Shown here: positions 11,421-32,078 of the stretch, one piece after another
Position numbering within the stretch: position 1 is the stretch's first letter
Layout of the letters: each line of letters begins with the position of its first letter
NCBI GenBank assembly: GCA_947259495.1
Contig: CAMYLV010000022.1
Location: 1-64,000 of the forward strand
DNA length: 64,000 nt
DNA from: an uncultured Desulfobacterales bacterium
GTDB lineage: Bacteria; Desulfobacterota; Desulfobacteria; Desulfobacterales; JAHEIW01
Reading direction: 5' to 3'
Position numbers and translations under genes: made by a program
Notes under the pieces: model-generated
What the model saw: the letters and a program-made list of their open reading frames with translations, nothing else
The model's database searches: none
Told to the model about the DNA's origin: nothing

Positions 11421-11486
11421 TTAGCAGTTGGATTTTTTTCTGCTTCAACGATTTTTACAATCGGTTGTACTGCCAAAAAAGTCAAA

Positions 11487-11840: not shown

Positions 11841-11870
11841 GGTAATATTAACAAAAATTAGACCGTTGAT

Positions 11871-11907
11871 AAAGGCAGGGTCAGCTATGGCCCTGCCGTA
11901 ATTTTTG
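11871..11907 (+). terminator. Rho-independent terminator
   Basis: The stem GGCAGGG with CCCTGCC and a 10-nt loop, then GTAATTTTTG, lies 30 bp past the stop of the lipoprotein frame. The about 300 bp that follow (to 12211) are very AT-rich and hold no gene I can support. Confidence 0.65.
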
Positions 11908-12211
11908 ATGCCTCCAGCAGAGAGCAAGTATTAGATGATTAAAGTTCTTGTGTTATTCATTTAGTGTCTACAATCAATATATTGCGGACAAGCCCTTTGC
12001 CAAAGTTGAATATATCGAGCATTTATTTGTGAAAAAAATGAAACACTTTTGTTGACTTTTTTTCACTATTATAGGCCATAAAAAATCTTACATTTCGATT
12101 AACCATTTGAAATTAAATTATATTTAGTTATTACGAAAGGCTTGCATAATTTTTGCAAATTTGAAATGATAAGCTTCATCTATAAAAATATGAATTTGCC
12201 GGAGGAAAACC

Positions 12212-15099: not shown

Positions 15100-15488
15100 G
15101 GTGTTTCTACAGTATAGTCGAAAATTTTCAGAACAGACGGCCGACGCGGACTTAAGTTCTTCCGCAGCCGCCACAGGTCATCAAGCCCGAGGTAAAACCC
15201 CGGGTTTTTGACGTTTATAGGGCTGGCCCTAAAAAAGTGGCACCAACCATATCCCAATATCCAGACCGATTCAGGTTTTTACAGGGCGTTTCCTGGTTGA
15301 CCGATCTGCACGCAAAAGGCATCATCTAGGGCCTGCAATTTGTAGACAAAACGTTTCAATAACAGGTCTAACCAAAATAGAACGGGGGGCGATGATCATC
15401 GCTTGACACCCAATTGGCCAAATCTTATGTTACACATTGTAATAACTTGGGTTTATAGATAACCTTCTCAAAGAGGTCAACGTATAAA
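15100..15488. other. Non-coding spacer upstream of the lipoprotein pair
   Basis: No gene supported. Short stop-interrupted fragments around 15275-15345 read like degraded coding sequence on the plus strand, but no family can be named. A CCGAGGTAAAACCCCGGG palindrome lies near 15190. Confidence 0.3.
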
Positions 15489-16607
15489 ATGAAAGCGCTT
15501 ATTCTAATGTCGGCCTTTCTGGCAGGATTGTGGTTTTCCGCCTGCAAATCAACGCCGGAGCCCAGTACACCGGTGCCCCAGCTGCCGCAGACCCAAGAAT
15601 CGACCGAATCCCTTCCGCCGCCCTCTTCTGAGACCCGGGAATCCGATCAAGCCGGCGCACAGCCGGAATCAAAAACCAGCCGGTCGACCGGTTCCGAAGC
15701 CACCGAACCGCTAGAGCAATCGCCAACGGAAAAAGCGCAGACCGAACCGGCTGCTTCCGAAGATGCAGGTGAATCCACCCCGCCGGAAGCAGCTCAAAAA
15801 TCGGAGGGGCGTCAATCAGAAGCTGCGCCTACAGCAGAATCCAAATTGGCAAAAGCGCGGGAGGATTTGCGGGTCAGCCAGGCGACCGAGAAAAAAATAG
15901 CGGACAAGCTTGAGGCGCTCAAAAAATCCGGCACTGCCTCAGCCGAGGATATTCGCAATTACGAAATCTACCACGAGCGAGTCCGGGATATGGTCGCTGA
16001 AAACCGCAAAAGAGTCGAAAAAATGGAGAGCGCTTACAGCAAGCACACGCCGGAAGGAAAAGCGTCTGAGGCGCCTGCCGGCAGCGGTTTGCCCGGTTCG
16101 GATAAAACAATCCCTGAAGAACAAACCCAAGATCAGGTGGCAGAGCTGGACCGTCAGCTAACCGCCTCTCTTAACCAATTTGATGCACTGCTGCTAAAGG
16201 AAATGGAAACCATTGAAACCCAGTCCGCCGCCAAAATGCGGGATCTGGCACAAGAAGCAGCTGAGGCCGCCAAACGTTTGAAGGAAAAAGGCGTCGATCT
16301 AGGCACCTCAGAATCCGAATCATCCGATGAGGCCTCAGATCAGGAAAAGGCGGGTGAGAAAGAGGAATCGACCAAAGAAAATGACGCATCCGCTGAACAG
16401 GGTGACGTCGATGAGGCTGTTGCCTCCGGTGATCGACCCAAAGGCCAAGGTCCGGGTCCAAAAGACGACAGGGGCGGTCGCTATAGCAAGGAGGATGATG
16501 ATATCGTTGCCCGCCAGCTGCGTGAGGCAGCTGAAAACGAAACCGATCCGGAGCTCAAAGAAAAGCTCTGGAAAGAATACGAAGATTATAAGAAAAACAC
16601 GCAATAA
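15489..16607 (+). CDS. Acidic coiled-coil lipoprotein
   Basis: A 372-residue protein with a lipoprotein signal (residues 1-19, AFLAGLWFSAC, Cys19 as lipidation site). Residues 20-115 are Ser/Pro/Glu/Gln-rich and probably disordered. Residues about 118-185 and 225-280 form charged helices likely to be coiled coils (EDLRVSQATEKKIADKLEAL; MRDLAQEAAEAAKRLKEKG). A second acidic linker follows, and the end has the motif DDDIVARQLREAAENETDPE followed by KLWKEY. I recognise this end as recurring in proteobacterial lipoproteins of unknown function. It overlaps no gene, and its stop is one base before the next gene's ATG, so the pair is an operon. It is probably an outer-membrane-attached periplasmic spacer or scaffold. 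Confidence 0.75.
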   Translation: MKALILMSAFLAGLWFSACKSTPEPSTPVPQLPQTQESTESLPPPSSETRESDQAGAQPESKTSRSTGSEATEPLEQSPTEKAQTEPAASEDAGESTPPEAAQKSEGRQSEAAPTAESKLAKAREDLRVSQATEKKIADKLEALKKSGTASAEDIRNYEIYHERVRDMVAENRKRVEKMESAYSKHTPEGKASEAPAGSGLPGSDKTIPEEQTQDQVAELDRQLTASLNQFDALLLKEMETIETQSAAKMRDLAQEAAEAAKRLKEKGVDLGTSESESSDEASDQEKAGEKEESTKENDASAEQGDVDEAVASGDRPKGQGPGPKDDRGGRYSKEDDDIVARQLREAAENETDPELKEKLWKEYEDYKKNTQ

Positions 16608-16608
16608 A

Positions 16609-17835
16609 ATGAATAAAACTGCACTCCACTGCATATTGATATTTGCGACCATGATCGCCCCGTGGGGGTGCGCTACTTACAACGCCCAGAAGGTTGGCCC
16701 GACTGCGATCGAGCGTGCCCGGACCCAAATTCCGGAAGAGCAGTTGCTCGACGTCGGCATCCTCGTTTTCGAAACAAAAGAACTGACACCGGAAGCGGCC
16801 AAAAAAGAAGGCACCAACACGGATATCCGCAATTCCGAAACACACTTTATGCCTTACCATCTGAAAAATACGTTGCATCAAAGCAGCCACTGGGGCGCCA
16901 TCCAGGTAGTCCCGGCCGAAACCAACAGTGTGGACCTGCTGGTGAAAGGCAAAATACTCGAATCAAATGGCGAGAATCTGGTGTTAGAAATCGATGTGGT
17001 GGATGCGACCGACATGCGCTGGTTTAAAAAGACATACAGCGTCAAGGCGTCTGATGCTTATTATTTCGGTAATATAGCGGGGGAAAAAGATGCTTACCAG
17101 GATCTCTACAATGCCATCGCCAATGATATGGCCCGCTATAAAATGAAGCTCAAGGCTGCCCAAATCGAATCGATTCGCACCGTTGCCAAACTCAAATTTG
17201 CCCGGGAATTTGCGCCGGACGCATTTGACGGCTACCTGACGGCGGACAAAAAAAACCACCTGAGCGTCAACCGCCTGCCGGCGGACAATGACCCCATGAT
17301 GGAACGTCTGCTGCAAATCAGAGAGCGAGAATACATGTATGTGGATACCCTCAATCAGCAATATGAAAAGTTTTACGCTGAAATGTGGCCATCTTACGAA
17401 AATTGGCGTCAGTTGAACCTGACCGAGCGTGAAGCCATAAAAAAAATTAAACAGGATGCGCTGACCCGGCAATTGCTCGGCGCACTGTTAATCGCAGGAG
17501 CGATTGCGGCCGGCTCACAGGACGCCAACATCGGCCGTGTAATAGCACCGGCAATGGTTATCATCGGTGGGCAGGTGTTTATTAGCGGCTGGAATGTGTC
17601 AAAAGAATCCGAAATGCATAAAGCGGCCATCGAAGAGCTCAGCGAATCATTCGGCGCCGAAATGCAACCCGTTACGATGGAATTTGAAGGACAGCAATAC
17701 AAACTGACCGGATCCGCCGAGGAGCAGTTTAAAAGCTGGAAAACGCTGCTGCGCCAAATCTATTTTGCCGAAACCGGCTTTAATCCGACACCTCCACCCG
17801 ATCAGACGGAAGCGGAACAAGACCAAAATCTTTAG
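16609..17835 (+). CDS. Predicted lipoprotein, partner of the preceding gene
   Basis: A 408-residue protein with signal and lipobox (FATMIAPWGC, Cys21). Residues 30-200 form a mixed α/β domain (LLDVGILVFETKEL, MPYHLKNTLHQSSHWGAIQVVP, DLLVKGKI, KTYSVKASDAYYF). A helical middle follows, then a short hydrophobic stretch (about 295-330, LLGALLIAGAIAAGS ... IAPAMVIIGGQVFIS) and a C-terminal EEQFKSWKTLLRQIYFAETG segment. I do not recognise a named family. The ATG at 16609 follows the upstream stop by one base. The pattern of an N-terminal lipidated domain plus an inner hydrophobic patch suggests a periplasmic or outer-membrane complex component. A strong terminator follows. Confidence 0.75.
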   Translation: MNKTALHCILIFATMIAPWGCATYNAQKVGPTAIERARTQIPEEQLLDVGILVFETKELTPEAAKKEGTNTDIRNSETHFMPYHLKNTLHQSSHWGAIQVVPAETNSVDLLVKGKILESNGENLVLEIDVVDATDMRWFKKTYSVKASDAYYFGNIAGEKDAYQDLYNAIANDMARYKMKLKAAQIESIRTVAKLKFAREFAPDAFDGYLTADKKNHLSVNRLPADNDPMMERLLQIREREYMYVDTLNQQYEKFYAEMWPSYENWRQLNLTEREAIKKIKQDALTRQLLGALLIAGAIAAGSQDANIGRVIAPAMVIIGGQVFISGWNVSKESEMHKAAIEELSESFGAEMQPVTMEFEGQQYKLTGSAEEQFKSWKTLLRQIYFAETGFNPTPPPDQTEAEQDQNL

Positions 17836-17999: not shown

Positions 18000-18118
18000 A
18001 GGGGGCACATGGCACCCAGAGGGCACATGGCACCCAGAGGGCACATAGCACCCAAAGGGCACATAGCACCCAAAGGGCACATAGCACCCAGAGGGCACAT
18101 AGCACCTCAGGGGCATAG
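18000..18118. repeat. 18-bp tandem repeat upstream of the kinase
   Basis: Six full units and one partial of consensus AGAGGGCACATAGCACCC. The units differ only at positions 1-3, in CATGG versus CATAG, and in the last base. It lies 68 bp before the kinase ATG, in its probable promoter/leader. The length is a multiple of three and all minus frames stay open (Met-Cys-Pro-Leu-Gly-Ala units), but no gene is supported there. Confidence 0.9.
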
Positions 18119-18186
18119 AATATCTTGAACCGGAACAGAGGATATCCCAACGGCACATAATAGCCGAATTGAACACATCCGAAGCC

Positions 18187-20598
18187 ATGCTGAATTTAAA
18201 AAAAGACCAGATATTGCTTTCCCGCTTTTCCCTGAATGAGATGATCGGCCAGGGCGGCATGGGCCAGGTCTGGCTTGTTTGGGACCTTGAACTTGAAATC
18301 CAAATTGCCGCAAAAATTTTAAACCCGCAGTTGATGTCCGATCCGAATCGCGTCAAACTGCTAAAGAATGAGTGTCGCAACACCCGTCGCCTCGCACACC
18401 CCAATATCGTGCGCGTATTTGATTTTCACCGATCTGAAGATCTGGCGTTCATATCCATGGAATATGTGGACGGCCAAAACCTGAACGTTTACCGCAGCCA
18501 ATGGGAACAGATCAGCACCTCGCAGATCATCAAGCTGATAAAGCCGGTCATCAATGCGCTTGGGTACGCACACGAAATGGGGCTGGTCCATCGAGATGTC
18601 AAAGCCGGCAATATCCTGGTTGATCGGCAGCAAACACCGCGCTTGACTGACTTTGGCATCGCCGGTGCTTTCAAGTCGGGCCACCATGCGCTGGAAATTA
18701 CCTCCGGTGGTTCGCTGTTTTGCATGAGCCCGCAGCAATTGGACAATCGCCGGCCTTCTCCGTCTGACGACATTTATGCCCTCGGCGTTCTGCTATATCA
18801 AATGTTCACCGGCTATCCGCCGTTCTATCCAGATATCACCCGTGACAGAATCCGACATGAAGCACCCGATCCCGTAAACCAACGCTTACGGCAACTGGCA
18901 GTCGATACGGTCGTCCCCGCTGCAATGGAAAACGGGATTGCCGGCATGCTGGCCAAGAACCCTGCTGATCGTCCGGCCAGTATGCGGGAAATTGAGGCGT
19001 TCTTTGATCGGCAGTTGCGGCCGGGCACCGATCAGACCATGGCACCGGACAGCCTGACGGCAGGCGTCCGTGCGCAACAGCAGGTATCAGAACACACCGA
19101 AATGATCGCACCGGTCAGCGTCATCCCAACAAAGGTTCGCAAGGGGCTGCCGGTCACTCTGCGCAGTAACCGGATAAAGGGGACGGTCCTGGTGGTTGCT
19201 TTTGTTTTTCTGCTGGTCGGCGGTTTTTGGCTGTGGCAATATCTGGCCCGTCAACACGGGAGACAACCCGCGCCGGAAGCGCCGGTGAGCGAACAAAGTC
19301 AATCGGAATCTGAAAAGACCGTAGCGCCAGCCGCGGTTTTGCCGAAAACAACACCGGATCCGACCCGGCTGGCCGCTGAAAAAAATGAAGCGGATAAGCA
19401 GCTGGGCGAATTTCTGCAGCTCAAACAGGAATTGGAAGCCAAGGGCGTTTCAAAATGGGGCGTCGAGACCTATCGCCAAATGTCGCTGCTTGCGGATGAA
19501 GCCGACCGCCTTTTAATTGAAAAGCAGTATGCCACAGCAGCTGCAAAATATGCGGCGGCCGTCGCCAAGGGGCAGGAATTGGTCAACCAGCTCGAGCCGG
19601 TTCTGAAACGGCTACTCGCTGAGGGCCAGGTCGCGCTCGAGGAAGGCAACGCTCAACTGGCAGAGGAAAAATTCACGATCGCCCTGATGATGGATCCAAA
19701 CAACCGAATTGCCCGGGACAGCCTGCAGCGGGCCAAAAACACGGACGCCGTCATGCGGTTGCTCGAATCGGGAAACCACCATGAAAAGGCAGACAATTTT
19801 GCAGCTGCCCACACCGATTATCAGGAGGCGGTGCGACTGGATCCTGCTTCAAAAAAGGCACGGCAAGCGCTCGCGCGGGTTGACGACACGATCCGTGAGC
19901 AACAGTATCAACAGTTGATGTCAGAAGGTCTGACGGCACTTCACAACAAAAACTTTCAGCTGGCCCGGACAAAATTGCGCAAAGCTCAAGCGTACCGCCC
20001 GGAATCCCGCGAGGTCAAAGATGCCCTGGCCCAGGCGGAGCAGTCCATGCGCCTGTCGCGGATTGAAACTTATCGCGGGCAGGCCGCCGCCTCAGAGCAG
20101 TCTGAAAACTGGCAACAGGCCTTAAACGCCTACCAGCAGGTCCTGGAAATCGATCCCAATGTCCGGTTTGCGGTACAGGGCAAACAACGCGCTCAAAAAC
20201 ACATCCGCATCGAAACGCGCCTCAATTATTTTCTGCAACAGCCTGCCGTACTGGAATCCGATCGGCAGCTTGACAACGCCCTTCAGCTGATTTCCGAAAT
20301 TGAGGCCATGGATAACAAAGGCCTGGCGCTCAAAAACCGGTTCGCTAAATTGAAACGAATCGTAGACGCTGCCCAAACCCCTATAAAAATAACCCTTGAA
20401 TCCGATACATTCACGGAAGTTGCGGTTTACAAAGTCGGCAAGCTGGGCCGTTTTGCGACCCGGGAGCTGAGCCTGCGACCCGGATCCTATACCGTTGTCG
20501 GTACACGTGACGGTTACCAGGATGTCCGCAAGAAAATTGTCATCAAACCGGAGCAGGGCCCGACACGCGTGACGATTCGATGTGAGGTTCAAATTTGA
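18187..20598 (+). CDS. Membrane Ser/Thr protein kinase with helical-repeat and PEGA-like C-terminus
   Basis: An 803-residue Hanks-type kinase with the catalytic set intact: G-loop GQGGMGQV (21-28), Lys43, HRDVKAGN (135-142) and DFG (155-157). A linker leads to one transmembrane helix (about 333-354, VLVVAFVFLLVGGFWLW). The extracytoplasmic part contains charged helices and TPR-like repeats (about 400-690, FTIALMMDPNN, YQEAVRLDPASKKARQAL, AYQQVLEIDPN) and a C-terminal PEGA-like β domain (ELSLRPGSYTVVGTRDGY). The likely role is to sense the envelope and phosphorylate cytoplasmic partners, such as the FHA proteins encoded downstream. The ATG at 18187 is preferred; a TTG at 18169 is possible, and neither has a good SD. 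The gene overlaps the next by 4 bp. Confidence 0.93.
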   Translation: MLNLKKDQILLSRFSLNEMIGQGGMGQVWLVWDLELEIQIAAKILNPQLMSDPNRVKLLKNECRNTRRLAHPNIVRVFDFHRSEDLAFISMEYVDGQNLNVYRSQWEQISTSQIIKLIKPVINALGYAHEMGLVHRDVKAGNILVDRQQTPRLTDFGIAGAFKSGHHALEITSGGSLFCMSPQQLDNRRPSPSDDIYALGVLLYQMFTGYPPFYPDITRDRIRHEAPDPVNQRLRQLAVDTVVPAAMENGIAGMLAKNPADRPASMREIEAFFDRQLRPGTDQTMAPDSLTAGVRAQQQVSEHTEMIAPVSVIPTKVRKGLPVTLRSNRIKGTVLVVAFVFLLVGGFWLWQYLARQHGRQPAPEAPVSEQSQSESEKTVAPAAVLPKTTPDPTRLAAEKNEADKQLGEFLQLKQELEAKGVSKWGVETYRQMSLLADEADRLLIEKQYATAAAKYAAAVAKGQELVNQLEPVLKRLLAEGQVALEEGNAQLAEEKFTIALMMDPNNRIARDSLQRAKNTDAVMRLLESGNHHEKADNFAAAHTDYQEAVRLDPASKKARQALARVDDTIREQQYQQLMSEGLTALHNKNFQLARTKLRKAQAYRPESREVKDALAQAEQSMRLSRIETYRGQAAASEQSENWQQALNAYQQVLEIDPNVRFAVQGKQRAQKHIRIETRLNYFLQQPAVLESDRQLDNALQLISEIEAMDNKGLALKNRFAKLKRIVDAAQTPIKITLESDTFTEVAVYKVGKLGRFATRELSLRPGSYTVVGTRDGYQDVRKKIVIKPEQGPTRVTIRCEVQI

Positions 20599-23033
20599 CC
20601 ATCCGCTACATAATTAAAGACCACAGCGGTAAACGGACCATACCGCAAGATGCCTTTCCGATCGTCATCGGAGCAGGCCCGACCGCCGCCATCCAAATCA
20701 CCGATTTAAAATCCGAAACGGAAGCGGCCTATATCGACCTATCGCAGAACCGGCCTTTTGTGCAAGCCGGCCACGCCGGTGTTGCGGTAAGCTATAATGA
20801 GCAAAAATTAGAAGATTCCGTCTGGCTGATGCACGGTGACCGGCTTGAAATCGGCTCCTGTGAAATAACGGTTGCAGCCCACGGCAACGATTTCATTATC
20901 CAGGTCGTCTGCCGGGAATCGGCCGAGGCGTCCGTCACATCGCCAGCTGCCGTCAGCCCGGCGCAGGCATTGAAAATCGACCCTGTGTCTTTCCGGTCGG
21001 ATCGCAGACAGCGGGGCGCAGGAGCCATTCATCGTTATCGTCGCTGGCTTGGTCTGGCAATCGCTCTGGGTTTCCTTATACTTTTGGCGGCCGGCTGGTT
21101 TGTCTTTACCGCCCGACAAATCACAATCCAAATTGAACCGCCGTCGGATCATGTTTCCATTGGCGGCAGCTGGATTGCACCTCGCTTTGGCGGGCACTTT
21201 CTGCTGAGACCCGGAACATACACACTATACGCCTCTAAAGAATGCTATTTTGCACTTGAAAAACCCTTTGAGGTGGGGGTTGAAAAAAACCAGACAATCC
21301 GGTTTAACATGGAAAAACTTCCCGGACGCATTTCCGTACAGGCCCATCCATCCGGCCAACCGGACCAACCGCTGACCGGTGCCCGGCTCATCATTGACGG
21401 GCAGGCGCTCGGGGTCACACCGGTTTCAAACCTGGAAGTAAAAGCGGGCCGGCGGGTTGTGGAAGTTCAAGCCGAGCATTACCAGGACATCAAAACAGAA
21501 GTGCAAATTATCGGCTGTCCGGAGGAACAGGCGTTTGAATTTGCCTTAATCCCCGGCTGGTCGGATGTGTTCATCAGCTCGGTCCCGGAGGGCGCCACTG
21601 TATCCGTAGACGGCAAGCCGGCCGGCAACACCCCTATAAAAATTGAGTTGCCCGAAGGCAATTACCGTCTGCAAATAAGTGCTGCAGGATTTAAAACTTG
21701 GCAAACCCGGCTGGCTGTTGTGCCAAATCAACCCCAATCCATAAAAGACGTGCAACTACAACCGGCCGACGGGACATTGGTCTTGCAGACCACACCATCC
21801 GGCGCTAATGTGACCATCAAACAAAAATTTGTGGGTAAAACGCCTTTAAAGATCCCCTTACCGGCAAATATGCGACATGAGGTTCAAATCTCGAAAGCCG
21901 GTTATGAGAACGCGGCCCAAACGGTCCAGGTGGCTACCGGCAAAGAAAAAACACTGGCTGTCAAATTGAAACCGATGCTGGGTGTTATTCAATTTGTGGT
22001 TGAACCGGCTGATGCCCGGCTGATTGTCGACGGGAAAAACCGGGGAACCGTGCCGCCAACACTCAACTTATTGGCGGTCAGTCACCAGCTGGAAATCCAA
22101 AAACCCGGCTACGAAACCTATCAAACCCGGATTACCCCGCGACCCGGATATCCGCAAGAAATCAAGATCACCCTGAAGCGGCGCCAATCAGCGCCTGCCG
22201 CTGCGGCTGGTGTCATCACGGCCAAAAACGGTAGCATGCTGAAACTGATCCGCCCGCAGCCTTTCACCATGGGCTCCTCGCGCCGTGAACAGGGCCGCCG
22301 CACCAACGAGACCCTTCGCAGGATAAATCTGCAACGACCATTTTACATGGGCCTGAAAGAAGTGACCAACAAAGAGTTTAAACTATTTTTGGCCGGCCAC
22401 GACTCCGGGGCTTTCAACGGACAGCCCTTATCGTCGGACGATGATCCGGTTGTTCAGATCACCTGGGAGCAAGCGGCATTGTACTGCAACTGGTTGAGCG
22501 CCCAGGAATCATTGCCGCCGGCGTATGTAAAAAAGGGCGGTCGCCTGGTGGCTGCTGATCCCATCGGCACCGGATACCGGTTGCCCACCGAAGCTGAATG
22601 GGAATATAGCGCCCGCTTCACAAACAATCCGGCCGGCCTCAAATACCCCTGGGGGAATCGGTTTCCGCCGGCCACTCCCTCGGGTAATTATGCCGATACT
22701 TCAGCTAAAAAACTGCTGGCCGTAGTTATCGAAAATTACAATGACGGCTTTCCGGGCACGGCCCCGCCGGCCAAATTTAAAGCCAACGGCCTGGGATTAT
22801 TTGACCTGGGCGGCAACGTTGCGGAATGGTGCCATGACTTTTACACAATTTATACCTATAATAGCAGTAAGACCGATGTCGATCCGTCCGGTCCCCCGCA
22901 GGGAAACCATCATGTGGTCAGGGGCTCCAGCTGGAAAAATGCCAGCATAAGCAAATTGAGGCTGGCCTATCGCGATTACAGCAATGGAAAACGCTCGGAT
23001 CTCGGGTTTCGCATATGCCGCTATTCACAGTGA
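20595..23033 (+). CDS. FHA-like / transmembrane / PEGA / FGE-like multidomain protein
   Basis: An 812-residue protein from a TTG that overlaps the kinase stop (TTGA). Residues 1-115 look like an FHA fold (FPIVIGAG ... WLMHGDRLEIGSCEITV), suited to binding phosphothreonine from the kinase. A transmembrane helix lies at about 152-173 (LAIALGFLILLAAGWFVF). Five PEGA-type β repeats follow (about 180-535, for example SVPEGATVSVDGKPAGNTPI). The end is a formylglycine-generating-enzyme-like (SUMF1) domain (from about 545: YRLPTEAEWEYSAR, GGNVAEWCHD, VVRGSSW, LGFRICR). The segment after GSSW (KNASISKLRLAYRD) lacks the two catalytic Cys of true FGE, so this is a binding version of the fold, not a sulfatase activator. 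Outer parts face the periplasm by topology. Confidence 0.9.
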   Translation: MTIRYIIKDHSGKRTIPQDAFPIVIGAGPTAAIQITDLKSETEAAYIDLSQNRPFVQAGHAGVAVSYNEQKLEDSVWLMHGDRLEIGSCEITVAAHGNDFIIQVVCRESAEASVTSPAAVSPAQALKIDPVSFRSDRRQRGAGAIHRYRRWLGLAIALGFLILLAAGWFVFTARQITIQIEPPSDHVSIGGSWIAPRFGGHFLLRPGTYTLYASKECYFALEKPFEVGVEKNQTIRFNMEKLPGRISVQAHPSGQPDQPLTGARLIIDGQALGVTPVSNLEVKAGRRVVEVQAEHYQDIKTEVQIIGCPEEQAFEFALIPGWSDVFISSVPEGATVSVDGKPAGNTPIKIELPEGNYRLQISAAGFKTWQTRLAVVPNQPQSIKDVQLQPADGTLVLQTTPSGANVTIKQKFVGKTPLKIPLPANMRHEVQISKAGYENAAQTVQVATGKEKTLAVKLKPMLGVIQFVVEPADARLIVDGKNRGTVPPTLNLLAVSHQLEIQKPGYETYQTRITPRPGYPQEIKITLKRRQSAPAAAAGVITAKNGSMLKLIRPQPFTMGSSRREQGRRTNETLRRINLQRPFYMGLKEVTNKEFKLFLAGHDSGAFNGQPLSSDDDPVVQITWEQAALYCNWLSAQESLPPAYVKKGGRLVAADPIGTGYRLPTEAEWEYSARFTNNPAGLKYPWGNRFPPATPSGNYADTSAKKLLAVVIENYNDGFPGTAPPAKFKANGLGLFDLGGNVAEWCHDFYTIYTYNSSKTDVDPSGPPQGNHHVVRGSSWKNASISKLRLAYRDYSNGKRSDLGFRICRYSQ

Positions 23034-23102
23034 AACCTAAATTGAACGTTTCAAATATTTATCGCAAAATTCGAAACGCTCAACTCGGGTGAGAGAGAAC
23101 AT

Positions 23103-23444
23103 ATGAGCACGCAAACATCTTCACGGTTCAAGCGGTTTGCAATCATCACCTTTGCATTGGCGGGTTTTGGGGTGGCCGCAAAATGGGTCGTCCCGGCCGA
23201 TGCTGCAAATCAGGTACTGTCCGAGCAGAAACAAAAGGCCCCGGCGGCCGTGCTCGTCGCACAGAGCGCAACCCAGACATCCACCGGCCAGGAGGCAGCA
23301 CCTTTGCCTGAAAGTCAAAAATCGGAAGCTAAAACCGATGAAAAGGATGAATCGGCCGAGCCCAAGAAGAAAGCACTTAAAAATTTTCGCCCGTCAGAAC
23401 AAATTGAAGCGGAGCAGGCGGTTGACTTCCCTTACGACATTTAG
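23103..23444 (+). CDS. Small exported protein ending in VDFPYDI
   Basis: A 113-residue protein with an N-terminal hydrophobic signal or anchor (residues 11-30, FAIITFALAGFGVAAKWVV). A low-complexity Ala/Gln/Glu/Lys-rich region (35-88) leads to the end NFRPSEQIEAEQAVDFPYDI. I recall a similar terminal motif (SEKI.AD.AVDFPVDI) in small proteins beside ExbB/MotA and vWA genes in related bacteria, which would place it in the same system; this is from memory and unverified. The start at 23103 lies 14 bases after GGTGAGAG. The stop codon directly abuts a 144-bp palindrome. Confidence 0.7.
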   Translation: MSTQTSSRFKRFAIITFALAGFGVAAKWVVPADAANQVLSEQKQKAPAAVLVAQSATQTSTGQEAAPLPESQKSEAKTDEKDESAEPKKKALKNFRPSEQIEAEQAVDFPYDI

Positions 23445-23587
23445 TTTTCAAATAGAAATGGCCTTTTTCCCGATGAGCTGTGTTCTCCGCGTCTTTAGGC
23501 CTTCAACGTACTACCAAGTACGCCGAAGGCTTAAAGACTTGTGCGGCCGAGCTCATCCGAAAAAATTCTCATTTCTATTTTGAAAAC
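23444..23587. repeat. 144-bp imperfect palindrome (family A, copy 1)
   Basis: Outer arms GTTTTCAAATAGAAATG and CATTTCTATTTTGAAAAC; the inner core is CTTCAACGTACT...AGTACGCCGAAG, with CGATGAGCT/AGCTCATC between them. Homologous copies lie at 42173-42318 and 46561-46651, with a fragment at 30734-30787. It begins at the last base of the preceding stop codon. The remaining bases to the channel gene at 23844 show no gene. Confidence 0.8.
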
Positions 23588-23843
23588 AACTCATTCTAAA
23601 CATAATGAGACAGCTTCTAATTTCATTACAGAAGCGGTTCTTCTGAGGGCCTGAATTCACAGGAACATTGATAATTGCTAAGCGGCTAAAAATAGAGCAT
23701 AACAGATTAGAAACTGGACGAACTAGAATATAGCGTGACAGAAACAATCAAGTATATTGGACCGCAAGCCTTAGATTTTGGTCGAGGGCATGGTGCATGG
23801 CGCATAGGGCAAAGCGTTATAATCTAAAATATGGATAATTATA

Positions 23844-24647
23844 ATGAAAAAAACGTTTCCGTTTTCTTTTGAATTCATTTACCAGGTGTTTTCTTTGATT
23901 GTCATCGTCATTATCGTGCATGCCATCTATGTGGCGGTGATTCGACCCAGAGCCGACGCAATTTTGGCCAAGCAGGCCATCGCGCTGGCCGAGGACAAGT
24001 CGCAGGTAATGGAACGCTCGGTGTTCGTAATCATCCGAGATTATGAACAGGAAACCTGTTTTATTCTGATGCTCTGGGCGATATCCATTATGGGGTACAA
24101 GGCCTTAAAAACGTCGCGCCAGAGCGCCCTATTACAAATGGACCTGATCCCGTTAGCCGAAGGTGTGCGCATCCTGCCGGAAGACACCCGGGATGTGTCC
24201 CGGCAGATCCAGGCGTTACCAGCCCAACAGCGCGAAGCGCTGTTACCCCGGGCGCTGCTGGCGGGTTTGCAGCGATTCAGCACCACTCGTAACATACAAG
24301 ATGTTGCCAGCGCCACCCGGGCCTATTGCGATTCGGAAGCCGAGCGGCTGGAATCCGAACTGTCCATGATTCGTTATATCGCCTGGGCCATTCCGTCTGT
24401 CGGATTTATTGGAACTGTGCGGGGCATTGGCGATGCGCTGGGCCAGGCGCACAAGGCCATCGAAGGCGATATCTTTGACGTCACGCGCAGCCTGGGTGTG
24501 GCCTTTAATTCAACTTTAATCGCGCTGTTAATCAGCATCGGCCTGATGTTTTTGCTGCATCAATTACAGCAGTTGCAGGAGCGCTATGTTCTGGATGCCG
24601 AAACCTATTGCGATGAAAACCTCATCAGTCATTTGTATACCAAGTAA
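23844..24647 (+). CDS. MotA/TolQ/ExbB-type proton channel protein
   Basis: A 267-residue membrane protein with four predicted helices: 11-33, 71-86, 178-196 and 216-240. Helices 3 and 4 carry the family pattern: AIPSVGFIGTVRGIGDAL (184-199 region, Thr191) and FNSTLIALLISIGLMFLL (Thr224), equivalent to the GLLGTV and TTA.GL motifs lining the ExbB/TolQ/MotA proton path. A cytoplasmic loop of about 90 residues (87-177) is typical. Such proteins form pentamers around a dimer of ExbD/TolR/MotB-like subunits and convert proton flow to mechanical work. No conventional ExbD or MotB gene follows; instead two vWA proteins whose N-terminal helices resemble ExbD lie just downstream. Confidence 0.9.
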   Translation: MKKTFPFSFEFIYQVFSLIVIVIIVHAIYVAVIRPRADAILAKQAIALAEDKSQVMERSVFVIIRDYEQETCFILMLWAISIMGYKALKTSRQSALLQMDLIPLAEGVRILPEDTRDVSRQIQALPAQQREALLPRALLAGLQRFSTTRNIQDVASATRAYCDSEAERLESELSMIRYIAWAIPSVGFIGTVRGIGDALGQAHKAIEGDIFDVTRSLGVAFNSTLIALLISIGLMFLLHQLQQLQERYVLDAETYCDENLISHLYTK

Positions 24648-24662
24648 TGGCGGTTGTAACCG

Positions 24663-24825
24663 CCCGGTTCAGAGGTTCAGGGTTCCCGGCTGGCGGTGAC
24701 TGGCATCTGGCTGCCGCAGAGGGCTGCCCTGCGCTCCAGTTGTCATCTGCCCTCTGTCTTCTGACTTCTGTCTTCTGATATCTAACCTTTGAACCCCTGA
24801 ACCCGGAACCTCTGAACCTTTAAAT
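24663..24825. repeat. Phrase-built low-complexity spacer
   Basis: It begins GGTTCAGAGGTTCAGGGTTC and ends with complementary phrases (CTGAACCCGGAACCTCTGAACC split across the arm), with CTGTCTTCTGACTTCTG in the middle. It is an imperfect inverted repeat of about 160 bp between the channel and ATPase genes, and no gene is seen. Confidence 0.65.
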
Positions 24826-24839
24826 TAAGGGTGCCCCGC

Positions 24840-26261
24840 ATGAGCCTATTGGGAATAGAACTGAGTGATGCCGGTATTCTTGTCGCCGGAGGCGACCCGC
24901 CCGGGCTGTTAAACATTGATGGGGGCGGTGTTGCGAGCCCCGGGTTTGCACTGCCGGAAAAAAAAGGATTGGCCGTCGGCACGGCTGCTGAAAGAAAAGC
25001 GCATCTTTATCCCCGTCAGATACTCAATCATTTCTGGGATCAATTAAACACTGAGCCACTGGAACAACCCATTCCGTTTGCACACAATCATGCCGAGATC
25101 GCCTTCGAGCACTTTGCCAATATCTGGCAGACCGTCAAGCAACACGGAACCGAAATGGTTATTGCCGTGCCGGGTTTTTATACGCGCAAACATTTGGGGT
25201 TGATCCTGGGGATTACAAATGAGTTGGCCATTCCCGTAAAAGCATTTATCCCGCTGGCCGTCGCTGCGGTGCCGGATCAGCTGCCTCAGGGGTTATTGCT
25301 GCATCTGGACCTGCATTTGCAGCGCTTTGAAATCACCCGTCTCCAGCGGGCAAACCAATTAAGCCGAGAGGATTCCATATCTGCCGAAGGAAGCGGTCTG
25401 AGCACATTATATCGGAGATGGGTGGATGCCATCGCAGAAGAATTCGTGCGCCACACCCGTTTTGATCCCCTCCATCAGGCCGCCACCGAGCAGGAGCTCT
25501 ACGACCGGCTGCCCGGCATCCTGGTGCAGCTCAAGCAAAATCCCAATGTCCATTTTGAAATGACGGGCGGTTCCAAGGTATATCACGTAACGCTGACGGC
25601 CGGGCTCTTTCACAAAATAGCCGCTCCCGTGTTGGAAGAAATCCGCCGTCAGGTGATTCGTTTTTACGACCGCTATGGCAGGGAGGCTCCCGGTCGAATC
25701 CTGCTGCTCACAGATCGCATCGCCCGTCTGCCGGGGATAAAAACCATTCTGCGCGAGATTGAGAATTGTAAAATAATCGCCTTGCCGTCCGGTTCAGGCG
25801 CATTGGGGGCCCTGCGATTTTGCGACCGGCTCGGTGAGCAAGACGAGGGCAGCAGCGCCCCGTTTTTAACCGCCCGGCCGTTGCCGGCTGAAGAGTCGCT
25901 TGTGGTTGAAGCGCCCCGGCAGCCGGCCAAAGCGCAACAGCGGCCCACCCATATCCTATATCGTGATCTGGCCTATCCCATTGCAGAGACGCCTTTGACC
26001 ATCGGCCTGGCAGCAGTTAAAGACGGATCCGGCATTCAGATCCGCAGCCAGGTCGCCGGTGTTTCCCGCAAACACTGCTCGGTTCAACTGCGCGGCAATA
26101 AAGTCGTTTTAAATGATCACAGCACCTACGGCACGTATGTGAACGAAATGCCGGTGGCCGGAACAACGAAACTGGAACTCGGCCAGGTCATTCGCGTGGG
26201 CACACCGGGTGAAAAACTTAAACTGATTGCATGTCTGGACACAGCACCTGATGAAACGTAG
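24840..26261 (+). CDS. Actin/Hsp70-like ATPase domain fused to FHA
   Basis: A 473-residue cytoplasmic protein. The N-terminal about 330 residues follow an actin/Hsp70-like order: phosphate-1 motif LLGIELSDAGILVAGG, VIAVPGFYTRKHLGLILGIT, phosphate-2-like LLLHLDLHLQRFEIT, and ILLLTDRIARLPGI in the adenosine region. The C-terminal about 90 residues form an FHA domain (PLTIGLAAVKDGSGIQI, SRKHCSVQL, DHSTYGTYVNE), which binds phosphothreonine peptides. It is a natural reader of the kinase encoded upstream. The ATG at 24840 has AAGGGTG upstream; a GTG three codons earlier is possible. The end overlaps the next gene by 11 bp, so the two are translated together. Confidence 0.85.
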   Translation: MSLLGIELSDAGILVAGGDPPGLLNIDGGGVASPGFALPEKKGLAVGTAAERKAHLYPRQILNHFWDQLNTEPLEQPIPFAHNHAEIAFEHFANIWQTVKQHGTEMVIAVPGFYTRKHLGLILGITNELAIPVKAFIPLAVAAVPDQLPQGLLLHLDLHLQRFEITRLQRANQLSREDSISAEGSGLSTLYRRWVDAIAEEFVRHTRFDPLHQAATEQELYDRLPGILVQLKQNPNVHFEMTGGSKVYHVTLTAGLFHKIAAPVLEEIRRQVIRFYDRYGREAPGRILLLTDRIARLPGIKTILREIENCKIIALPSGSGALGALRFCDRLGEQDEGSSAPFLTARPLPAEESLVVEAPRQPAKAQQRPTHILYRDLAYPIAETPLTIGLAAVKDGSGIQIRSQVAGVSRKHCSVQLRGNKVVLNDHSTYGTYVNEMPVAGTTKLELGQVIRVGTPGEKLKLIACLDTAPDET

Positions 26262-27339
26262 AGCCGTCAACGTATTCAACTTATCGTTTCTGGATATCAT
26301 TACCTGCGGCCTGGGGGCGATCATCCTTTTGTTTGTGCTGGTAAATGCAAAAAGTGCAGCCCAAAGGGATTCAATAACATCTGATTTTCGTGCTGAAGCG
26401 GATCGCATGCAGCAGGAAGTCCTGGAAGCCAAAAAGGATCTGGTTCTGGCACGCAATTCCTTAGAGCAGACCGATGCGAATCTGGTGCGCACAGAAGGTC
26501 TGTCTCGCAAAATCATCGAAATACTGGAACCAAAAAAAATCGAGCTGTCCGACAGACAGGATGACACCCTGGCCACCAAGGAACATGTCAATAAATTAAA
26601 GGCGGATCTGAAATCAATAGAAGAGGAACTTAAGCGCCTGAGAGCCGGGGCCAAGACCCAGGATGATCAGGGCACCCGACTGCGCAAGTTTCCCGGACAG
26701 GGAGACCGTCAGTATTTAACCGACCTGAAGATGGGCGGCCGGCGAATTTTTATCCTGGTGGATGCCTCTGCCAGCATGCTGGATGAAACGGTTGTCGGAA
26801 TCATTCGGCGGCGCAACCTGAGCACTAACGCAAAACTGAAATCTGCCAAATGGCAGCAGGCGGTCGCCACCGTCAATTGGCTGACCACGCAGCTTCCGCA
26901 AACAAGCCAGTTCCAGATATACGCATTTAACGAAAACGCCCGCCCCCTTCTCGAAGGCACCGGGGGAACCTGGCTGGACGCCGGCAATGTGGATCAATTA
27001 AATCAGTCCGCCAAGGGTATCCGCGGTGTTATCCCGGAAAAAGGTACCAGTCTTTTAAATGCCATCACGGCCATGCGCTCGATGAAGCCTGCGCCCGATA
27101 ACATTTTTTTGCTGACCGATGGCCTGCCGACGATGGGGTCGGACAAACCCTGGCGCAAACGGGTGTCCAGCGAAAAGCGATTGAGTCTTTTTAAAGCAGC
27201 GATCAGCGAATTTCCAAAGGCGCCGGTAAACGTCATTTTATACCCGATGGAAGGCGACCCTCTCGCAGCGGATGCCTATTGGCGCCTGGCGAATCGCACG
27301 CGCGGATCATTTTTTTCGCCGTCAAAGGATTGGCCATAG
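26251..27339 (+). CDS. Membrane-anchored vWA protein 1 with an ExbD-like N-terminal helix
   Basis: A 362-residue protein. The N-terminal transmembrane helix (NLSFLDIITCGLGAIILLFVL, cut here for position: residues 10-30) has an Asp at 15, placed as in the proton-carrying helix of ExbD/TolR. A coiled coil follows (about 40-135), then a von Willebrand factor A domain with a complete MIDAS: DASAS (from Asp171), the KGTSLLNAI Thr and LLTDGLPTMG Asp. vWA domains bind partners through a divalent cation. By topology the coil and vWA lie in the periplasm. The start ATGAAACG lies inside the end of the ATPase-FHA gene. It is a paralogue of the next gene, and the two could form the dimer inside the ExbB-like pentamer. 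Confidence 0.88.
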   Translation: MKRRAVNVFNLSFLDIITCGLGAIILLFVLVNAKSAAQRDSITSDFRAEADRMQQEVLEAKKDLVLARNSLEQTDANLVRTEGLSRKIIEILEPKKIELSDRQDDTLATKEHVNKLKADLKSIEEELKRLRAGAKTQDDQGTRLRKFPGQGDRQYLTDLKMGGRRIFILVDASASMLDETVVGIIRRRNLSTNAKLKSAKWQQAVATVNWLTTQLPQTSQFQIYAFNENARPLLEGTGGTWLDAGNVDQLNQSAKGIRGVIPEKGTSLLNAITAMRSMKPAPDNIFLLTDGLPTMGSDKPWRKRVSSEKRLSLFKAAISEFPKAPVNVILYPMEGDPLAADAYWRLANRTRGSFFSPSKDWP

Positions 27340-27445
27340 ACACGGCTCAGGGCTAAAGACGAAAGGCCAAGCAAAAAAGACAGATTTAGCCGAGTACTGT
27401 GTGCCGGTAACGACATGGCTTTTTCTAGATGGCGTAACTAAAATT

Positions 27446-28447
27446 ATGAAAAAGAAAAGAAAAGACATCAAGATTTTCAGCTTATCTTTTCTGGACTGCA
27501 TTTGCTGTGGATTCGGAGCGGTTATCCTGCTGTTCGTATTATCCAAATTCGCCGAACCGTTGATCATCGAAGAAGTAAAAGAAGATCTGGAGGCTAAAAT
27601 CGTGCTGCTGGAAGAGGAACTGGTCGAGATTCGGGGGGAAACAACGATACTGAACCGTGACTTAACGGCGAAAAAGGAGCAGCTCTCAAAAGAAAAGATT
27701 CGGCTGGCTCGCTTGCAGGGTGACCTGTCCAAAATCCAGGGTCAATTTGCGGCATCAAAAGATACCGCCCAGGTCCAGAATATTATTGAGGGTCAACTGG
27801 CCCGAGCCATGCAGGAATTAACCGCAGAAATGCGACGCCTGCTCAAGGCACGACCCCGTAAAATCGACCGCTCTATCGGCGGTATTCCGGTGGACAGCGA
27901 GTACATTATTTTTATCATCGACACGTCAGGCAGCATGCAGCGCAATGCCTGGTCTCTGGTGCAGCGGAAATTAAGAGAAACCCTGGATGTATACCCGAAA
28001 GTCAAAGGCATCCAGATCATGAATGATATGGGCGAATACATGTTTTCGCAATACCGGGGCAAGTGGATTCCTGACACACCGGCCCGCCGGCGAGCCATTA
28101 TTTCACGGCTCAGTTCCTGGCGCGCTTTCAGCAACTCCAGCCCGGTAGAAGGCATCACGGCAGCCATCCGAACCTTTTATGCAACGGACAAAAAGATAAG
28201 CCTCTATGTTTTTGGGGATGAATTCAGCGGATCCCGGATGCAACCGGTTGTCGATGCCGTGGATCGCATTAACAAACGGACAACAGACGGCTCCCGGCGG
28301 GTTCGGATACATGCCGTGGGCTTTCCGGTAGTAATGGGAAAAACCAACATGCGGGGCAATACGGGGGAACGCTTTGCGACCTTGATGCGCATTTTGTGCC
28401 ACAAAAACGGCGGCACTTTTGTGGGGCTGAACAGTACGAGGCCGTAA
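27446..28447 (+). CDS. Membrane-anchored vWA protein 2 with an ExbD-like N-terminal helix
   Basis: A 333-residue protein with the same architecture as the preceding one: helix FSLSFLDCICCGFGAVILLF (residues 11-30, Asp17), a coiled coil (about 40-125) and a vWA domain with DTSGSM (Asp159) and a later YVFGDEFSG segment. The C-terminal end HKNGGTFVGLN is typical of the family. The start at 27446 (MKKKRKDIK) is chosen because the frame upstream shows no family sequence, although it is open to 27272. A 106-bp spacer separates it from vWA 1. The two differ in coil length and are only moderately alike in the vWA domain, so they are old paralogues rather than a recent duplication. Confidence 0.88.
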   Translation: MKKKRKDIKIFSLSFLDCICCGFGAVILLFVLSKFAEPLIIEEVKEDLEAKIVLLEEELVEIRGETTILNRDLTAKKEQLSKEKIRLARLQGDLSKIQGQFAASKDTAQVQNIIEGQLARAMQELTAEMRRLLKARPRKIDRSIGGIPVDSEYIIFIIDTSGSMQRNAWSLVQRKLRETLDVYPKVKGIQIMNDMGEYMFSQYRGKWIPDTPARRRAIISRLSSWRAFSNSSPVEGITAAIRTFYATDKKISLYVFGDEFSGSRMQPVVDAVDRINKRTTDGSRRVRIHAVGFPVVMGKTNMRGNTGERFATLMRILCHKNGGTFVGLNSTRP

Positions 28448-28489
28448 TGAGGTGTCAGAAAACAGATAGCGTTCTTCATCTTCAAGTTT

Positions 28490-28545
28490 TTAGCCTCTGT
28501 CTTCTGTCGTCTGACTTCTGTCCTCTGATACCTGAAACCCGGAGC
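28490..28545. repeat. CTGTCTTCTG phrase tract
   Basis: Degenerate repeats of CTCTGTCTTCTGTCGTCTG lie in the spacer between vWA 2 and the zinc-ribbon gene, matching the tracts at 2.4, 24.7 and 39.2 kb. Confidence 0.5.
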
Positions 28546-28611
28546 GCGGCACCCGAAACCAAAAATCTATTTATAGAAATTGCAATTGAGAACCAAAAAG
28601 CGACAAAACAT

Positions 28612-29067
28612 ATGAACCTCAGATGCCCCAAATGCAGCAAGCAGTTGCCGGAAGTGGAAACGCTGGAATATCGTTTTTGCCCCCATTGCGGGGCTGAAAT
28701 CACGGCCAAACCCCAGCAACTTGAAGAAGCCTTTTTGACCATTCCACCGGATTTACCGCCACCCCGAGCAGACCCGCAGCCCAGGGATTTAAACACTGAA
28801 ACTGAAAAAAAAATAACCGTTGCCGGCCTGTTCGATAATCAAACCATCGAACCGCAGCCCGTCACCTCACGAAATCGGCCGGAAATCAAACCGCCGCTTG
28901 AATCTCCACCCCCCCATTTCCGCCGAATGCCGTCTGAAGACGCCGACCCGCCGCCACCGAAACCAAAAAAACAACCGCCGACAAAAAACCAGAACAAGAT
29001 TATTATCGTGGTTTTGATTTTGCTGGTCGTGGTAATTTTGATATTGGGCGGGTTGTTTACCTTTTAG
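28612..29067 (+). CDS. Zinc-ribbon protein with a C-terminal membrane anchor
   Basis: A 151-residue protein. It starts with a zinc ribbon (CPKC at residues 5-8, CPHCG at about 24-28). A Pro-rich acidic linker (about 35-125) follows, with KKITVAGLFDNQTIEPQPV as the only conserved-looking part. One C-terminal transmembrane helix (about 130-149, IIIVVLILLVVVILILGGLF) makes this a tail-anchored cytoplasmic adaptor. The ATG at 28612 is chosen because the zinc ribbon begins right after it; the frame is open upstream through low-complexity spacer. As last gene of the cluster it may tie cytoplasmic components to the membrane complex. The stop is directly followed by a family B hairpin. Confidence 0.75.
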   Translation: MNLRCPKCSKQLPEVETLEYRFCPHCGAEITAKPQQLEEAFLTIPPDLPPPRADPQPRDLNTETEKKITVAGLFDNQTIEPQPVTSRNRPEIKPPLESPPPHFRRMPSEDADPPPPKPKKQPPTKNQNKIIIVVLILLVVVILILGGLFTF

Positions 29068-29296: not shown

Positions 29297-30571
29297 ATGG
29301 CTACTTTAATTCCACCTCATGGCGGAAAAGGACTGACCTGTTGCCTGCTCGAAGGCGCTGCGCTGGAGGCTGAAAAGAAAAAGGCCGAAGGCCTTAAAAA
29401 GATTTCGGTTTCGCCGCGTGAAAAAGGCGATTTGATCATGATGGGTATCGGCGGCTTCAGCCCGCTGACCGGCTTTATGACCAAAGCGGATTGGAAAGGG
29501 GTATGTGATAACTTTCTGATGGCCGATGGGACTTTTTGGCCCATTCCGGTGACCTTATCGGCTTCAAAAGAAGATGCAGAAGGCATCAAAGAGGGTGAGG
29601 AAATTGCGCTCTATGATCCGGAGGCCGATGAGATCATGGCCACCATGACGGTCACCGAAAAATATGAAATGACCGAAGCCGACAAAAAATTTGAATGTGA
29701 AAAAGTTTACATGGGCGAAGGCACCGCCACTGCAGAAGAGTTCTGGAAAATCGCCAAAGATGATCATCCGGGCGTTCAGATGGTCATGGAACAAAAAGAT
29801 TATAGCCTGGCCGGACCGGTCAAGGTGCTTAGTGAAGGCGAGTATCCCACCCGCTATGCCGGCGTTTACATGCGACCGGAAGAATCCCGTAAAATATTCG
29901 AAGAACGCGGCTGGAGCGAAGTGGCTGCGCTGCAGCTCAGAAACCCCATGCACCGCTCTCACGAATACCTCTGCAAGATTGCCGTTGAGGTGTGCGACGG
30001 CGTTTACATTCACTCTCTGGTCGGCAATTTGAAGCCGGGCGATATCCCGGCCAGCGTTCGGGTAAAATGTATCGATGCACTGGTTAAGGGTTATTTCGTC
30101 CAAGATAAGGTCGTCCAGGGCGGATACCCGCTGGACATGCGCTACGCCGGTCCCAGAGAAGGATTGCTGCACGCTACTTTCCGGCAAAATTACGGGTGTT
30201 CCCGTATGATCATTGGCCGCGACCATGCCGGTGTGGGCGACTTCTACGGCATGTTTGAAGCCCAGACCATCTTTGATAAAATTCCGTGCCCGGAGGAAGA
30301 AGGCAAAGCCCTGCTGTGCGCCCCGCTGAAAATTGACTGGACCTTTTATTGCTACAAATGCGACGGCATGGCATCGCTGCGAACCTGCCCGCATGAAAAA
30401 GGGGACCGCGTCCTGCTCAGCGGAACCATGCTGCGAAAGATGCTCTCAGAAGGCGAAGCATTGCCGGATCACTTTGGGCGTGACGAAGTCGTTGAAATTC
30501 TGCGCGGATACTACGAAGGCCTGACTGACAAAGTGGAGATCAAGCTGCACGGAGCTGCTACCGGAGATTGA
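29297..30571 (+). CDS. sat: Sulfate adenylyltransferase (ATP sulfurylase), dissimilatory
   Basis: A 424-residue enzyme that forms APS and pyrophosphate from ATP and sulfate, the activation step of dissimilatory sulfate reduction in the cytoplasm. Active-site motifs seen: [13 protein letters not shown] (the RNPxHRxH nucleotide/sulfate motif), [11 protein letters not shown], and [26 protein letters not shown] cluster near residues 350-365 is the zinc site of the homo-oligomeric prokaryotic type. There is no APS-kinase domain. SD AAAGGAGATG precedes the ATG. It is monocistronic, with a strong terminator 30 bp downstream, and convergent with the qmoC end of the minus-strand apr-qmo genes. Confidence 0.98.
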
Positions 30572-30600
30572 TTTGATCATCTAAAACAAGCGCAGAAATC

Positions 30601-30640
30601 AAAAGGGAGCCGCCGCAAGGCGCGCTCCCTTTTCATTTTT
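30601..30640 (+). terminator. Rho-independent terminator of sat
   Basis: AAAAGGGAGC pairs with GCTCCCTTTT (10 bp) around a GC-rich loop, followed by CATTTTTC. Confidence 0.88.
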
Positions 30641-30733
30641 CAGGTTCCAAGGTTCAACGTTCAACGGTTCAGAGGTTAGTGGCTGCTGGTCATTGGCTAC
30701 TTGGTGCTGGATAGCTGCCAGAAGCGAGAAGCC

Positions 30734-30787
30734 AAAACCCGCGGAGAACACAGCTCAGCAGAAAAAGGACCTTTGCCGATTAAAAAT
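30734..30787 (-). repeat. Fragment of family A palindrome at the qmoC stop
   Basis: CCCGCGGAGAACACAGCTCAG and AGAAAAAGGACC (read together with a short gap) match one arm of the family A elements. It overlaps the last codons of qmoC. The preceding 30641-30733 is GGTTCAACGTTCA-type phrase sequence. Confidence 0.6.
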
Positions 30788-31937: not shown

Positions 31938-32078
31938 ATTCATACCTCCTAAAAAATTGAAGAATGAAAATTGACAATTGAATATTTAAGGATCTCAATC
32001 CGTATTATCTTTGTGTCATTCAAATCAGCAAGTTTCATTTCAACAAATCGTCAATATTCAATATTCAATATTCAATTA

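Follow-up and report, generated by a model that had tools for sequence, protein, structure and literature searches.

A candidate trans-envelope 5:2 ion motor with paired vWA proteins in an uncultured Desulfobacterales bacterium

Bacteria are known to use ion motors of the 5:2 class to swim, glide, and secrete, to import nutrients and maintain the outer membrane, and to defend themselves against phages. Here, we describe an operon that probably encodes a Tol-like, trans-envelope motor of this class, with two different vWA proteins as its axle. The operon lies in a 64,000-nucleotide stretch of DNA from an uncultured Desulfobacterales bacterium (GenBank assembly GCA_947259495.1, contig CAMYLV010000022.1, positions 1 to 64,000 of the forward strand), which is referred to as the window.

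The nearest described system is the TPH-vWA / TolQ-like motor family with a TolR-like helix that was predicted by Williams-Jones et al. (2025, Mol Biol Evol, PMC12204202, section 8 and Fig. 4c-d). In that work, the vWA genes were found as heterologous pairs beside tolQ-like genes and without tolR or exbD, and AlphaFold3 models placed the vWA helices inside the channel pentamer, with the Asp pair encircled by a ring of Thr residues. The central motor idea is therefore already published as a prediction. The window locus has in common with the published family the heterologous pair of membrane-anchored vWA proteins, the tolQ-like neighbour, the lack of tolR and exbD, the helix Asp, the channel Thr, and hosts among the Proteobacteria. 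What is new here is the full list of nine genes plus an optional kinase layer, which we did not find in PMC12204202. When the main text was searched by word, neither kinase nor PEGA appeared, and "FHA" appeared solely as the name FhaC; the section on the TPH-vWA family lists no genes for lipoproteins, an Hsp70-like protein, or a small peptide. Our literature search found no paper on the combination of kinase, FHA, TolQ, and PEGA.

The channel and the vWA pair

Homologues of vWA2 were taken from 65 public genome contigs, and all frames were scanned with a profile of each window gene. These public contigs and the loci from unbiased genome samples made up the 108 loci that were compared; the loci were not fully independent because some represented the same genome from two collections. 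The channel gene adjoined the vWA pair in 99 of the 108 loci. Six of the nine remaining loci were contig ends (L011, L013, L034, L058, L067, and L073), one was a broken contig (G679), one had an N-filled gap across which channel sequence was read (L050), and one (G580) is considered below. An apparent channel-Hsp70 fusion in L050 was rejected because its frame runs through undetermined bases. The few loci that lacked vWA1 or vWA2 were truncated contigs.

Whole-genome profile searches of 369 gammaproteobacterial genomes identified the vWA family in 31 genomes and the channel subfamily, at one copy per genome, in 32 genomes, with 31 genomes in common. The sole channel match without vWA proteins was a borderline partial match (9.6e-31). 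The vWA family was present in 6 of 345 Desulfobacterota genomes, each of which held both paralogues, and in 8 of 237 genomes from the phylum of L026, all of them paired. Hence, the distribution was patchy (~2-8% of sampled genomes) and, by channel search, single-copy. An earlier note on the window, which a model had written from the sequence, asked whether these genes stay together; the 99 adjoining loci and the 31 shared genomes indicated that they do, and vWA proteins without an ExbB-like neighbour were not the rule.

The channel protein scored 52 to 54 bits against PF01618 (cut-off, 22.9 bits), and a solved TolQ structure was its sole match in the PDB (E = 0.012). Residues Thr191 and Thr224 were each found in 99/99 sequences. 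We take these two residues to be the pore-lining Thr positions of ExbB, TolQ, and MotA, which face the Asp of ExbD and MotB.

In the case of vWA1, an N-terminal transmembrane (TM) helix, oriented cytoplasm-in, was followed by a coiled coil and a periplasmic vWA domain. The vWA2 protein had an N-terminal helix paralogous to that of vWA1, a coiled coil, and a vWA domain with DTSGS and D258. The helices of the two proteins were homologous (hhalign E = 9.5e-26), and both carried the Asp-containing motif that had been described previously. Among the sequences that covered the position, Asp15 of vWA1 was invariant (102/102), as was Asp17 of vWA2 (102/102); the Cys after the Asp and the second Gly of the helices were likewise invariant. 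The metal ion-dependent adhesion site (MIDAS) was also conserved. In vWA1, it consisted of DxSxS, T266, and D290, with D171, S173, and S175 present in 103/103 sequences, and in vWA2, D159, S161, and S163 were present in 104/104. PF13519 was matched by 10 of 33 vWA2 homologues.

The only ExbD found at any of the 108 operon loci was at L191, where it was part of an ordinary ExbBD-type pair located just upstream and was rejected as a member of the operon. The window genome had five ExbB/MotA-type genes and two ExbD genes; both of the latter were on other contigs and directly beside other ExbB genes, and the vWA proteins were not among the PF02472 (ExbD/TolR) matches. Thus, the previous claim that the channel has no true ExbD or TolR beside it was borne out. 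Because the genomes carry other ExbD genes, with at least one PF02472 match somewhere in each of the 23 genomes checked (23/23), this absence applies to the locus and not to the genome.

Envelope partners and the optional kinase layer

The conserved operon contained nine genes in a recurrent order: lipoprotein 1, lipoprotein 2, TPR protein, PEGA/FGE protein, small protein, channel, Hsp70-like protein (not always present), vWA1, and vWA2. This order was seen in Desulfobacterota, Gammaproteobacteria, and one contig labelled Myxococcales when all reading frames were scanned with the profiles. The strand-uniform run of genes in the earlier note was confirmed, with every gene on the + strand and at its place, but the extent of the run was not; the operon begins at 15489 instead of 18000, and the two upstream lipoprotein genes (15489-17835) had been missed. 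Pfam domains were confirmed for the kinase, TPR, PEGA, FGE-like, MotA/ExbB, FHA, and vWA (vWA1) regions of the window genes. The lipoprotein, TPR, PEGA/FGE, and small-protein genes were co-conserved with the motor genes in the 108 loci, and the zinc-ribbon gene was a lineage-specific accessory (Table 1).

Clustering of the flanking genes revealed only two additional lipoprotein genes that stood out beyond the operon. These genes followed or preceded the operon in ~27 loci; in L051, the copies were located at 10985-12285, directly after vWA2. The second of the two proteins contained a conserved "VVLGRR...ELDFISC" stretch, and neither protein had a Pfam match. The other flanking-gene clusters were rejected, as they consisted largely of frame artefacts and of genes that were neighbours by chance.

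The gene set is predicted to span both membranes. Lipoprotein 1, whose lipobox was seen in the window protein, had a strongly conserved C-terminal helix ("DDDxxARQLREAAExExDPELREKLWxEYRxYK"). The lipobox Cys22 of lipoprotein 2 was invariant (25/25), and the AlphaFold2 model of this protein (pLDDT 83, pTM 0.80) consisted of an alpha/beta domain and then a long helical hairpin (residues 230-302 and 310-351). When the alpha/beta domain was analyzed with Foldseek, the best solved match was TolB (E = 7e-4), followed by LptE; in addition, one lipoprotein 2 homologue matched PF04052 TolB_N (E = 0.0015). The PEGA/FGE protein had an FHA-like N terminus, a TM helix at residues 152-170, four PEGA repeats, and a periplasmic FGE/GldK-like domain, which matched the GldK/PorK model at 8.8e-34 but below the model cut-off (117 of 350 bits). 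The small protein ended in a conserved peptide, F.PSE.I.A(D/E).AV.FP.DI, at its extreme C terminus. Judging from their sequences, this tail and the C-terminal helix of lipoprotein 1 look like docking elements.

The kinase, FHA, and Hsp70-like regions were counted in the 77 complete loci. The conserved core of the kinase-TM-TPR protein was the TM helix plus the periplasmic TPR region, with a C-terminal domain, and the kinase head (residues ~20-275) was optional. It was found in 16 of the 77 loci; in the other 61, the gene encoded a TM-TPR protein alone (e.g., L016). The K (AAK), HRD, and DFG motifs were intact in the window, which agreed with the "active membrane kinase" of the earlier note, but the kinase was not a general part of the machine. 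Specifically, the motifs were clearly intact in ~6-7 of the 16 aligned sequences (window, L009, L010, L015, L019, L148, and probably L145) and degenerate in most of the other kinase-bearing loci. In L190, a second, separate kinase gene with an HRD motif was located at 15363-17000, downstream of an operon whose kinase head was degenerate.

The FHA domain of the Hsp70-like protein (FHA2) was present in 22 of the 77 loci, and the FHA-like N terminus of the PEGA protein (FHA1) was present in 34. Inspection by eye of FHA1 in the window and the listed relatives showed that Arg, SRxH, and NGT were all missing from the positions where they would be expected. The phosphothreonine site of the window FHA2 had Leu for Arg and Tyr for Asn, with SRKH kept; the Arg was kept in some relatives.

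These findings bear on the idea of a phosphorylation-switched motor, in which the kinase would mark a partner that is bound by FHA and proton flow would start or stop. Such a switch would be a layer added to the motor and not an alternative to it. It fits the intact catalytic motifs of the window kinase and the co-occurrence of the kinase with FHA2 (14 loci with both, 2 with the kinase only, 8 with FHA2 only, and 53 with neither; Fisher p = 3.5e-8). However, the association was not significant once relatedness was counted, as the vWA2 tree provided about five independent contrasts (5 independent pairs), which put significance out of reach. Moreover, FHA1 lacked the phosphothreonine-binding residues, the window FHA2 lacked the canonical Arg and Asn, and the kinase was lost or degenerate in most relatives. 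We therefore consider the switch doubtful, and the previous claim of kinase/FHA control weak. The motifs make kinase control possible in the window lineage. Because the kinase was lost or degenerate in most relatives, it cannot be the general working mode; the kinase layer is optional and is not the core working principle.

The Hsp70-like gene was absent from 21 of the 77 loci. At L072, the locus of Desulfogranum marinum DSM 2058, the scan detected no Hsp70-like gene and no kinase head. The AlphaFold2 model of its product (pLDDT 86) matched DnaK/Ssz1 in Foldseek at ~1e-18, with a target TM-score of up to 0.79. In our reading of the alignment, "LGIELSDAG", "HLDLHLQR", and "LTDRIARLP" replaced the Gly/Thr-rich nucleotide loops of DnaK, for which we assumed the generally known phosphate-1, phosphate-2, and adenosine loop consensus. 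Since the phosphate and adenosine loops were not those of an ATPase, this protein is more likely a scaffold. Thus, in the "actin-like ATPase fused to FHA" of the earlier note, the FHA domain was retained and the fold was reassigned to an Hsp70 nucleotide-binding domain (NBD) with degenerate loops.

Coordinates and neighbouring sequence

The genes of the locus are listed in Table 1.

Table 1. Genes of the window locus and their presence among the 108 loci. Many contigs end within the operon, so the lower counts are minima.
Gene product	Coordinates	Strand	Loci (of 108)	Features in the window
Lipoprotein 1	15489..16607	+	68 (profile matches)	FSAC lipobox (residues 16-19), then a long disordered stretch and the conserved C-terminal helix
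Lipoprotein 2 (predicted outer-membrane)	16606..17835	+	73	Lipobox Cys22, TolB_N-like alpha/beta domain, helical hairpin
Ser/Thr kinase-TM-TPR protein	18169..20598	+	77 (TPR protein)	PF00069 2.4e-44; TM 338-356
PEGA/FGE protein	20595..23033	+	88	PF08308 1.8e-56, PF03781 5.4e-42
Small exported protein	23103..23444	+	88	TM/signal helix 12-30, disordered linker, C-terminal peptide
MotA/TolQ/ExbB channel	23844..24647	+	99	PF01618 E = 6.5e-14
Hsp70-NBD-like protein with C-terminal FHA	24831..26261 (alternative ATG 24840)	+	66	FHA PF00498 1.3e-9
vWA1	26251..27339	+	106	PF13519 1.2e-6, above cut-off; Asp15 codon 26293-26295
vWA2	27446..28447	+	105	Pfam vWA weak (0.054); Asp17 codon 27494-27496
Tail-anchored Zn ribbon	28612..29067	+	3	Zinc ribbon, proline-rich linker, C-terminal TM 130-148

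Several repeats were observed between the genes. A near-palindromic element of ~150 bases occupied the region between the small-protein and channel genes (23440-23600). It had 20 matches in the genome at E <= 1e-5, with itself and its own opposite strand counted, and the other copies were 74-89% identical. Because of its multiple genome copies, we assigned it to a dispersed repeat family of the miniature inverted-repeat transposable element (MITE) or repetitive extragenic palindrome (REP) type. An 18-base tandem repeat (GGGCACATAGCACCCAGA, 6.3 copies) was located at 18003-18115, immediately 5' of the kinase gene, and short repeats of 14 bases (TCTGACTTCTGTCTTC type) were found in two intergenic stretches within the operon (24741-24778 and 28494-28528).

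Outside the operon, the region 3' of it (29297-34415), when read by eye, appeared to contain an ATP sulfurylase gene and, on the - strand, QmoC/QmoB-like genes of sulfate respiration; these genes are consistent with a sulfate-reducing host. The protein encoded at 12212-13468 looked exported; its gene had an internal duplication of 354 bases, and its tail was a long Gly-Gly-Gly-Asn repeat (16 x 12 bases).

The proposed motor and its comparison with known systems

The observed gene content, conservation, co-occurrence, and domain folds suggested the following arrangement, in which the stoichiometry, pore insertion, proton use, rotation, and outer-membrane output are predictions. Five copies of the TolQ/ExbB-like protein would form a proton-conducting ring, and one vWA1 and one vWA2 would form a dimeric axle that replaces ExbD/TolR/MotB. 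The N-terminal helices of the vWA proteins would be in the pore, with Asp15 and Asp17 against the Thr191 and Thr224 rings. Proton entry would make the axle turn or ratchet. By way of the coiled coils and vWA domains, this movement would reach the periplasm, where the axle may contact the TPR and PEGA/FGE proteins, the FP.DI tail of the small protein, and the two lipoproteins (one of them TolB_N-like). The MIDAS sites could provide a metal-dependent grip on a partner, and the resulting force would act on the outer membrane or wall. The kinase head, the Hsp70-like/FHA protein, and the zinc ribbon would be optional extras on the cytoplasmic side, which may adjust the motor in the window lineage.

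As stated at the outset, we judge a Tol-like 5:2 motor with a vWA1-vWA2 axle to be probable. We propose the complete version more tentatively: a nine-gene, trans-envelope force machine in which a vWA1-vWA2 heterodimer is the axle, proton flow is converted into outer-membrane work through the vWA contacts, the FP.DI peptide, and the TolB_N-like lipoprotein, and a kinase head found in a minority of lineages forms, with the FHA/Hsp70-like protein, a cytoplasmic control layer. If this is true, an axle that ends in adhesive/metal-binding vWA domains with fixed periplasmic and lipoprotein partners would be a further kind of output of 5:2 motors. The parts list also makes the published prediction testable, as the partner proteins and residues are named and the kinase is not required.

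Four points weigh against the proposed motor. First, when the vWA helices were compared with 22 ExbD helices from the same genome group, the profile match (probability 3-4%, E = 0.012-0.015) did not reach significance, and control comparisons with unrelated signal or TM helices gave E values of 0.017-0.035. The likeness of the vWA Asp to that of ExbD is therefore positional, and common descent is not proven. Second, the channel gene of G580 was unlinked to the vWA genes, as the two were on different contigs in that genome. Third, outer-membrane contact is suggested by the lipoboxes and the TolB_N-like fold alone. Fourth, the window family was equated with the Idiomarina family of PMC12204202 based on shared architecture and host range and not on a direct comparison. 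It seemed, then, that the claim of a vWA axle was upheld by linkage, co-occurrence, the lack of an ExbD at the locus, and the invariant Asp and Thr residues but not by helix homology to ExbD, which had been put forward as a check.

The first of these points would also suit a channel that uses an ExbD or TolR encoded elsewhere, with the vWA proteins as TonB/TolA-like arms on the outside of the motor and the Asp serving in helix-helix packing. Each of the 23 genomes checked could supply an ExbD, as noted above, and an edge-bound topology has been described for a first vWA family (PMC12204202). However, the ExbD genes that could be placed were located separately and never in the operon, both vWA paralogues kept the Asp without exception, and the SHLS/His motif of the edge-bound family was absent from the vWA helix here. 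We therefore regard a borrowed ExbD as unlikely.

A Zorya-type anti-phage defence system, a parallel drawn in the earlier note, would share the 5:2 motor class (ZorAB) and accord with the ExbB-type channel, the patchy presence, and a kinase similar to defence kinases (mad6 and PD-T4-6), but it is highly improbable: the ZorA match was not significant (E = 0.046), a PADLOC scan gave no ZorB, ZorC, or ZorD match among the tested operon proteins, the other defence matches were to coiled coils or generic kinases, the operon proteins included lipoproteins and periplasmic proteins instead of a nuclease or helicase, and a channel gene that is single-copy in each genome, with a stable order of the operon genes, is unlike defence islands.

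The proposed vWA motor also resembled three envelope systems. The locus shared with Tol-Pal (TolQRA-TolB-Pal) a TolQ-like channel, a TolB_N-like lipoprotein, a TPR protein (cf. CpoB), and a presumed force on the outer membrane; it differed in having vWA domains instead of TolR, TolA, Pal, or the TolB propeller. The type IX secretion system (T9SS)/gliding motor GldLM with its PorK/GldK ring likewise pairs a proton motor with an FGE-like (GldK-like) periplasmic protein, although the GldK match here was far below the cut-off and none of the operon proteins matched GldM or GldN. In the case of the Myxococcus AglRQS/Glt machinery (general knowledge and PMC9389320), the two Asp-bearing partners, AglQ and AglS, are MotB/ExbD-like and not vWA proteins. 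When compared by description, however, that system too has one MotA-like channel with two different partners, along with FHA, TPR, and zinc-ribbon envelope proteins. By analogy, the lipoproteins, the PEGA/FGE (GldK-like) protein, and the TPR protein argue for mechanical work on the envelope, which may be upkeep of the outer membrane, adhesion, or gliding; work of this general kind is performed by Tol-Pal, T9SS/gliding, and Glt.

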